Part shown: positions 35,066 through 36,288 of the stretch, in pieces
Layout: each line of letters opens with the position of its first letter
How positions within the stretch are numbered: position 1 is the stretch's first letter
Source of the DNA: Mesotoga sp. BH458_6_3_2_1
Lineage (GTDB): Bacteria > Thermotogota > Thermotogae > Petrotogales > Kosmotogaceae
Assembly (NCBI RefSeq): GCF_003664995.1
Contig: NZ_JFHL01000002.1
Span: 248,001 to 312,000 of the forward strand
Direction: 5' to 3'
Length of the DNA stretch: 64,000 nt
Notes under the pieces: generated by a model
Seen by the model: only the letters and a program-made list of their open reading frames with translations
What the model was told of the DNA's origin: nothing
Database searches by the model: none
Translations under genes and position numbers: made by a program

Positions 35066-35140
<75 letters not shown>

Positions 35141-35141
35141 G

Positions 35142-35169
35142 AACTCCCCAGTTAAGGGGAGTTTTTTTC
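35142..35169 (+). terminator. Terminator of tRNA-Asn
   Basis: AACTCCCC pairs with GGGGAGTT around AGTTAA, followed by a run of seven Ts ending next to the asparagine synthetase stop codon. Confidence 0.92.
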
Positions 35170-36107
35170 TATATCCAGCTCTGACCAGGGACCTTGGGAA
35201 AGAGTCTGGTTCTAGCAACACTGTCAAGAGAGCAGACATACCTTGTTAGTCTTTCCACGCCAATTCCGCAACCCGCTGTAGGCACAAGCTCACCGGCTTC
35301 CGCTATCTCCATGTACCACGCAAGCTCTTCCGGATCATTATCCTTGAACTCCATTCTGTTAATGATCCTCTGATGTTCCCACTCTCGTTCTCCCCCCGAG
35401 AGAGTCTCCCCGAAACCGTCTGGAAGAATCAGATCCATGTCCTTAAGCGTTCTCTCGTCTTGAGACAACAGGTCGTAGAATTCCCTTTCCCATACGGGAA
35501 AATCTATCAGCCAGAACGGTTCTTTGAAGCTCGAAGATAGGACGGTCTCGAAGTCCTTTCCATACTGCTCGTAAGCGTCCATGAATTTTACTTTTGCGAA
35601 GGGCGTTGTTGGTACGGAAGGGTTCGAAGAAAGCAATTCCAGTTCCTCCCTGCAACTACTTTTTACTTCTGCAATAAGCTTAGTAATGAGGCCTTCCACC
35701 AGTGACATTACCTCATCTCTCTTTGCGTTTCGGATTTCCAGGTCAATCTGGCTGAATTCAAAAAGGTGTCTTCCAGTAAGTGACTTCTCCGACGTTTCAA
35801 GTCTAACATTGGGGGAGACTATAAAGATTCTCTCGAATGTTTTGCATGCCAATTGCTTGTGAAATATCATCGACTGGGTTAGACGATACTCTTGATCGTA
35901 ATAACGGAACTTAGCGTTGTGGACCTCATGATTCAGGGGGTCGGTAATCGGTGAGATTATTGTTGGAAGTAGTTCGACAAATCCCTTTCCCCGAAGAAAA
36001 TTGCCTGCTTCTCCCATTATTGCGGACTTTACCCTGACTGCCGATTTCACTAAAGGATCTCTAAGATGTTCAATTACTTTAGTACTCATTCTTCCTATGC
36101 TTTCCAT
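35169..36107 (-). CDS. Archaeal-type asparagine synthetase (asparaginyl-tRNA-synthetase paralogue)
   Basis: 312 residues from ATG 36107 (GGGGTGAG 5-6 nt upstream); ATG 36149 would start inside the leader terminator. Class II aminoacyl-tRNA-synthetase core: motif 1 around FVELLPTIISPITDPLN, motif 2 FIVSPNVRLETSEK ... HLFEFSQIDLEI, motif 3 AGCGIGVERLTRYV. The N-terminal anticodon-binding OB-fold of AsnRS is absent, and the length matches the archaeal asparagine synthetase A-related enzyme. It makes asparagine from aspartate, ammonia and ATP. Preceded by an Asn-rich leader peptide and attenuator, and next to tRNA-Asn. A true AsnRS is unlikely. Probably acquired from archaea (inference). Confidence 0.82.
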   Translation of the reverse strand: MESIGRMSTKVIEHLRDPLVKSAVRVKSAIMGEAGNFLRGKGFVELLPTIISPITDPLNHEVHNAKFRYYDQEYRLTQSMIFHKQLACKTFERIFIVSPNVRLETSEKSLTGRHLFEFSQIDLEIRNAKRDEVMSLVEGLITKLIAEVKSSCREELELLSSNPSVPTTPFAKVKFMDAYEQYGKDFETVLSSSFKEPFWLIDFPVWEREFYDLLSQDERTLKDMDLILPDGFGETLSGGEREWEHQRIINRMEFKDNDPEELAWYMEIAEAGELVPTAGCGIGVERLTRYVCSLDSVARTRLFPKVPGQSWI

Positions 36108-36122
36108 TTTCTCACCCCTTCC

Positions 36123-36156
36123 AAAAAAATAGGGCCGATGGTTTTCCATCGGCCCT
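36123..36156 (-). terminator. Attenuator terminator of the asparagine synthetase leader
   Basis: Perfect 11-bp hairpin (minus strand AGGGCCGATGG / CCATCGGCCCT, plus 36131-36141 and 36146-36156) with an AAAA loop, followed by A and seven Ts (36123-36129). The asparagine synthetase ribosome site begins immediately after it, so this controls entry into the gene. Confidence 0.92.
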
Positions 36157-36207
36157 GTAATCTTCTACTTTCTTAAACGCAAAGATTAACTGACCGATCC
36201 CGGCCAG
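36148..36207 (-). promoter_or_regulatory. Alternative leader structures: pause hairpin and antiterminator
   Basis: Pause hairpin: CTGGCCG (36201-36207) pairs with CGGTCAG (36190-36196) around GGAT, one wobble. Antiterminator: ATCGGTC (36192-36198) pairs with GGCCGAT of the terminator arm (36148-36154), and TAATCTT (36182-36188) pairs with AAGATTA (36158-36164), separated by a symmetric 3x3 internal loop. The three structures are mutually exclusive in the order 1:2, 2:3, 3:4. Sequences are given on the minus strand. Confidence 0.8.
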
Positions 36208-36257
36208 CTATTATTATCGACTTTCATAATTCTAGAAACAGAGACTGCTTTAACCAT
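36186..36257 (-). CDS. Asn leader peptide (23 codons)
   Basis: ATG 36257 with a perfect AGGAGG seven bases upstream (36265-36270), ending TAA at 36186-36188. The peptide starts MVKAVSVSRIMKVD, then has two adjacent asparagine codons (AAT AAT, 36210-36215), then SWPGSVS. The Asn codons lie just upstream of the pause-hairpin arm, exactly where a stalled ribosome would free the antiterminator. It should sense charged tRNA-Asn and control the asparagine synthetase gene. Confidence 0.8.
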   Translation of the reverse strand: MVKAVSVSRIMKVDNNSWPGSVS

Positions 36258-36279
36258 AATTCTTCCTCCTGAATGATAG

Positions 36280-36288
36280 ATTGTACCA
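36280..36288 (-). promoter_or_regulatory. Extended -10 of the asparagine leader
   Basis: Minus strand TGG-TACAAT; predicted start near 36273, a few bases before the leader-peptide ribosome site. No strong -35. Confidence 0.6.

Follow-up and report, generated by a model that had tools for sequence, protein, structure and literature searches.

The locus lies in a 64,000-nucleotide stretch of DNA from Mesotoga sp. BH458_6_3_2_1 (the window, whose numbering is used unless another locus is named), where an asparagine synthetase gene read from the minus strand is preceded by a short open reading frame and a set of stems that share arms. In order of coordinates the features are as follows.

35066..35140, plus strand: tRNA-Asn (GUU), convergent with asnA and 28 bp from its stop codon
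35169..36107, minus strand: asnA, archaeal-type asparagine synthetase A, AsnRS-related (NF005054, PF00152, PDB 3p8t)
36111..36119, minus strand: ribosome binding site of asnA, AGGGGTGAG, as read from the sequence
36123..36129, minus strand: T7 tract of the terminator, likewise as read
36131..36156, minus strand: intrinsic terminator (3:4), 11-bp stem with arms AGGGCCGATGG and CCATCGGCCCT; its counterparts in families f2 and f7 covary
36148..36198, minus strand: antiterminator (2:3), arms 36182-36198 and 36148-36164; its f2 counterpart covaries
36190..36207, minus strand: pause or protector hairpin (1:2), arms 36201-36207 and 36190-36196; its f7 counterpart covaries
36210..36215, minus strand: control codons AAT AAT (Asn-Asn); Asn codons kept in relatives, 2 to 9
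36186..36257, minus strand: leader ORF of 23 codons, MVKAVSVSRIMKVDNNSWPGSVS followed by its stop; orthologous leaders at 47 of 48 loci
36265..36270, minus strand: Shine-Dalgarno AGGAGG of the leader ORF, 7 nt spacing, kept in Mesotoga relatives
36280..36288, minus strand: putative extended -10 element TGGTACAAT, likely the promoter of the leader; relatives have a TGGTAnnAT-like motif in the same place

By family assignment the gene encodes an asparagine synthetase A of the archaeal type, as the first-pass annotation had called it. It scores 371.8 bits against NCBIfam NF005054 (cut-off 309), has the fold of the class II D/K/N synthetases (Pfam PF00152), and has archaeal asparagine synthetase A as its nearest solved structure (PDB 3p8t, E 1.9e-56). 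Its start codon reads out at 36107 with GGGGTGAG just upstream; a longer ORF call at 36149 was rejected as the asnA start, being the asnA frame running back through the terminator. A genuine AsnRS, scoring above its cut-off, is encoded in the same genome, and free asparagine thus feeds tRNA charging. An AsnB-like ORF is also present, with a score under the family cut-off, so AS-A may not be the sole source of asparagine. GatB was dropped as a marker of the indirect route to Asn-tRNA because it is nearly universal across Thermotogota and hence uninformative.

The tRNA-Asn gene holds the same position beside asnA at each Mesotoga locus with enough flanking sequence, and among the loci compared the convergent arrangement is not kept outside the genus. 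No second close copy of tRNA-Asn(GUU) was found in the genome. A terminator-like hairpin (35140-35165) lies between the two genes. We regard the tRNA gene as a neighbour and not as a component of the switch, one supplying the charged tRNA that the switch would sense.

Reading out the minus strand of the leader region (36123-36285) placed each feature proposed for it in the first-pass annotation at the bases given there. The leader ORF runs from an ATG at 36257-36255 to a TAA at 36188-36186 behind its AGGAGG, and its two adjacent Asn codons are read at 36215-36210. The first hairpin pairs CTGGCCG (36207-36201) with CGGTCAG (36196-36190), a 7-bp stem that the minimum free energy fold lengthens to 10 bp through A-U and G-U pairs. 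The antiterminator consists of 7 bp, a 3x3 internal loop and a further 7 bp formed between 36198-36182 and 36164-36148, and the terminator has its 11-bp stem at 36156-36131 and seven Ts at 36129-36123, ahead of the synthetase ribosome site. The three stems thus follow one another in the 1:2, 2:3, 3:4 order with shared arms, as had been claimed, and the antiterminator excludes the terminator by using its 5' arm, as in an attenuator of the trp/his type. A leader frame with Asn codons followed by three competing folds implies that asnA should be turned on only under asparagine shortage.

Orthologues of AsnA were found in 49 of 103 Thermotogota genomes, and 48 of these loci have readable upstream DNA. 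The first-pass annotation had named loss of the Asn codons, or of the pairing, in relatives as the outcome that would count against an attenuator. What we found instead is a uORF with Asn codons at 47 of the 48 loci, spread over five families, together with stems that recur in the families; the one orthologue lacking a leader is that of genome G017 (locus L048). The leader ORFs of the relatives come with a ribosome site and are predicted to be translated. The number of Asn codons ranges from 2 to 4 in Mesotoga, where the two of the window leader stand at the bottom of the range among orthologous leaders, from 4 to 9 in other Kosmotogaceae, and, counting those within the run or close to it, from about 2 to 9 in Petrotogaceae (f2), f4, f7 and f11; the family names attached to f-numbers, such as Petrotogaceae for f2, are ones that we infer. 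Synonymous codons are mixed, with 197 AAT and 93 AAC among the tallied uORFs, a ratio that is approximate in that most Mesotoga loci contributed an ORF other than the real leader.

The order of elements is the same in every family: an Asn run, a hairpin, and an arm complementary to the 5' half of the terminator. All three stems recur with family-specific sequences, the antiterminator arms being ATCGGTC/GGCCGAT in Mesotoga, GGTCGGTGTTG/CAACACCGGCC in f4 and CAGCGTCGGTAATT-like in f2. Pairing between the antiterminator arm and the terminator 5' arm exceeds that of shuffled versions at nearly every locus with a correctly located terminator, about five f2 loci having had the wrong hairpin chosen as terminator in this comparison. 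The compensatory base changes that the first-pass annotation had proposed to look for in the stems of relatives are present in f2 and f7. There was no covariation signal inside Mesotoga/Kosmotoga (A1), where the paired arms are nearly invariant, so the covariation evidence rests on the other families. In f7, hairpin 1:2 is 97% paired with a covariation score above all 500 shuffles, and the terminator also covaries by formal pair counts; helix 2:3 is 92% paired with no two-sided changes. In f2, two-sided changes number 13 against 4.7 expected for the antiterminator and 14 against 3.8 expected for the terminator. The shuffles behind these f7 and f2 figures ignore the relatedness of the sequences. 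In f2 the 5' arm of the antiterminator begins within arm 1. The 1:2 hairpin can pre-empt the antiterminator in Mesotoga and f7; in f2, with arm 1 overlapped by 2:3, it is weaker in this respect.

The reading frame across the f2 arm ACAGCGTCGG is informative, as the arm is translated -QRR- in most species whereas L046 reads it as -NSVG-, and in either case the Asn run stays in frame. The arm is thus conserved as RNA and the Asn run as codons. This bears on the possibility that the nascent peptide itself arrests the ribosome in the manner of SecM or TnaC, the Asn run and PGSV forming the arrest motif. The leader peptide end PGSV[SG] is indeed well kept in Kosmotogaceae, as such a motif would be, but its codons are those of the conserved RNA arms, and the leaders of other families end in QRR, NSVG, SIDIGRLG or TA, leaving the Asn codons alone in common. 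We consider peptide arrest very improbable.

A slimmer chance still attaches to a T-box or another RNA that would sense uncharged tRNA-Asn or asparagine directly, with no need for translation. In Firmicutes, Asn-specific T-box leaders govern asnA, asnB and asnS by termination control. The signal (tRNA-Asn charging), the class of target gene and the control of termination are common to those leaders and the asnA leader, which likewise has a terminator/antiterminator pair. However, a T-box binds tRNA directly without translation, and none was found at the asnA locus: in the window and ten related loci no T-box or riboswitch matched at gathering level, relaxed settings returning sub-threshold noise. 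Moreover, the stretch from Asn run to terminator is short and family-specific in sequence, and the only feature common to all families is the in-frame run of Asn codons in a uORF.

For the control sets we applied a stricter rule that asks for three consecutive, or almost consecutive, Asn codons. Forty of the 48 Thermotogota AsnA loci satisfy it, the shortfall of 8 comprising six Mesotoga loci with Asn-Asn, L065 with Asn-Asp-Asn, and the one leaderless locus. Under the same rule no run precedes any of 17 archaeal asnA orthologues or of 18 asnB-like genes of the phylum (the AsnB-like ORF of the window genome included), and a convincing Asn leader precedes one of 30 glnA genes. Single Asn-rich ORFs before the glnA gene of L174 (SFNNNPN) and the asnB-like gene of L213 (KNNEN) have no leader-like context. 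The codons that interrupt Asn runs encode V, D, F, L, S or I and never Lys. The leader region of the window folds with a z-score of -4.27, none of 200 dinucleotide shuffles being as stable, and shuffling the arms gave an equally good 2:3 duplex in 3 of 200 cases. Within the window and a further 0.8 Mb or so of its genome, searched on both strands, just 20 arrangements pass a filter for the overall anatomy (a short ORF with its ribosome site, then a strong terminator, then a long ORF with a ribosome site of its own), and two of these have adjacent Asn codons, namely the asnA leader and the unrelated L152. Terminators are frequent and the window genome has only two Asn codons in its leader, yet a plain intergenic terminator that happens to follow a uORF, or a protein-bound AAY tract, has a negligible probability given leaders at 47 of 48 orthologues against their near absence before asnB, glnA and archaeal asnA, the conserved 2:3 pairing, and the lack of Lys codons among the breaks in the run. 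Moreover, a tract recognised by a protein could do without conservation of the Asn frame.

L152 itself is a uORF-terminator pair, MNNSCFYSIFVGMVMCRETPFR (G000:C3, reverse strand, about 1330-1472), lying ahead of a gene whose predicted product, judged from the sequence itself, looks like MetQ. A Met or Cys attenuator is possible there.

Each leader was folded as a transcript that ends with arm 3 and has yet to reach arm 4, with an assumed ribosome footprint of 13 nt held unpaired. L032, L065 and L070, whose terminators are visible, were omitted from this set; the terminators of L047, L051, L052, L054 and L076 were correctly located. The mean fraction of arm-3 bases that are paired is 0.81 when the ribosome occupies the first Asn codon and 0.30 when it sits at the stop codon. 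In the window leader the corresponding values are 0.63 and 0.04, with 0.39 in the absence of a ribosome, 0.63 being the maximum for a 7-bp stem (seven of the eleven arm bases). The predicted folds fit a scheme in which stalling would give antitermination and completion of the leader would give termination. In f2 and several other leaders, the antiterminator is predicted to form without any ribosome, 2:3 beating 1:2 in f2, and basal control there may therefore differ. It follows that in these leaders the ribosome at the stop codon, and not the 1:2 hairpin, probably provides the off switch.

We conclude that the locus is very probably (about 93%) a ribosome-mediated transcription attenuator specific for asparagine. 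We infer that transcription and translation are coupled on the leader, that the ribosome stalls at the Asn codons and that the gene responds to asparagine. RNA polymerase would begin just upstream of the leader, with a ribosome trailing it on the leader ORF. Were Asn-tRNA ample, the ribosome would clear the Asn codons and reach the stop codon inside arm 2, so that the antiterminator would be blocked, 3:4 would fold and transcription would stop ahead of asnA. Were Asn-tRNA scarce, the ribosome would stall at the Asn codons and mask arm 1, leaving arm 2 to pair with arm 3, so that the terminator would be blocked and the asparagine synthetase transcribed.

Leader-peptide attenuation was first described in the enteric Trp, His, Leu, Thr, Ile/Val and Phe operons (PMC1183508, PMC2965389), the attenuated operons listed being trp, his, leu, thr, ilv and pheA (PMC1183508). 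Demonstrated systems of this type had been confined to Proteobacteria and Actinobacteria until His leaders in Firmicutes were added (PMC2965389), and an analysis of four Rfam amino-acid leaders suggested a gamma-proteobacterial origin (PMC3766115). The trpL peptide has 14 residues, with two of three control codons for Trp and an attenuated product of 141 nt (PMC1183508). The Mesotoga leader is like that of E. coli trpL (RF00513) in its short ORF, two adjacent control codons, 1:2/2:3/3:4 order, stop codon near arm 2 and predicted attenuated RNA of comparable length. It differs in that the codons are for Asn and not Trp, the sequence is unrelated, the target is a single archaeal-type gene in another phylum, and no repressor is known for the asnA switch. 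The Asn leaders of f2 and several others differ from trpL in a further detail, shut-off there probably falling to the ribosome at the stop codon and not to 1:2. The long runs of one codon in relatives, up to nine Asn, and the terminator ahead of the structural gene have parallels in the his leader (RF00514) and in the Firmicutes hisS/hisZ leader peptides (PMC2965389), which differ in amino acid and gene and give no Rfam match here.

The first-pass annotation knew of no Asn attenuator described in Thermotogota. The available record agrees: none appears in the open-licence PMC literature that we searched, the main texts of PMC2965389, PMC1183508 and PMC3766115 make no mention of an asparagine leader, and the Rfam amino-acid leader families (Trp, His, Leu, Thr and others) gave no match in the window or ten related loci. 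The asnA leader is therefore a new amino-acid specificity, asparagine, in a new phylum, Thermotogota, for a classic known mechanism.

Other leaders occur in the phylum. Short ORFs with His runs (e.g. MRIQRRIIKMFASIHHHHRFGPAVSPPGVWR) lie upstream of hisG at 24 of 30 Thermotogota loci (L226-L253, for example L233 at position 521, L235 at position 504 and L252 at position 492), and a terminator was seen for the his leader of G042 (L115), the sole his locus inspected for one. These are probable His attenuators, and their presence before most his operons suggests that leader-peptide attenuation may be general in Thermotogota. Separately, an aromatic-codon-rich leader-like ORF with a terminator, MNMYWYIFGRDRPICRLV, is found at L109 615-695 (G004:C1:1634614-1634694) ahead of a periplasmic-binding-protein transporter operon. 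The remaining weak model matches were rejected as leaders, L110, L112-L114 and L116 resembling ordinary gene-end terminators and L111 having no gene behind it in a leader-like position.

The one convincing glnA leader, MRKIWKAYNCYSISANAANNNWPGSACSMP, lies directly before glutamine synthetase on the reverse strand of L108 at 540-632 (G100:C97:68869-68961). In G001, G028, G035 and G101, asnA and glnA adjoin on one strand; in G100 they are separated, each with its own Asn leader. This distribution is the kind of pattern expected of asparagine-specific control. In an unrooted maximum-likelihood tree a branch (99/95) separates all Thermotogota AsnA sequences from the archaeal ones, and AsnA of G002, a Kosmotogaceae genome, nests within Petrotogaceae, which indicates transfer. 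G002 also carries an orphan Kosmotogaceae-type leader, MSEEMKVRKVFVLVETSKDNNNNNRPGSVGYCFI (L107 592-684; G002:C1:791991-792083), with its attenuator stems intact and no detectable trace of asnA following it. About 200 nt downstream of the orphan the next ORF begins (589 aa, no Pfam match). One history would have an ancestor of these Thermotogota gain the archaeal-type synthetase once, with Asn attenuation arising at that point or shortly afterwards, later to be tuned (2-9 codons), duplicated to glnA, moved between families along with its gene and orphaned in G002, where the orphan would act in trans as a free-standing asparagine-sensing sRNA or peptide in the manner of Sinorhizobium rnTrpL/peTrpL. 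As a whole this history is unlikely.

Asparagine thus joins the signals for attenuation, in a partly thermophilic phylum, and a bacterial switch is placed on an archaeal-type enzyme, the closest kin of asnA outside the phylum being archaeal. Since the Firmicutes T-box serves the same purpose, one job is here again done by different RNA sensors. Ranging naturally from 2 to 9 control codons at one gene, the leaders could put to the test the theory that sensitivity depends on how the control-codon stretch is designed (PMC1183508). Finally, as the glnA case illustrates, the Asn leader is usable as a marker for asparagine-regulated genes.
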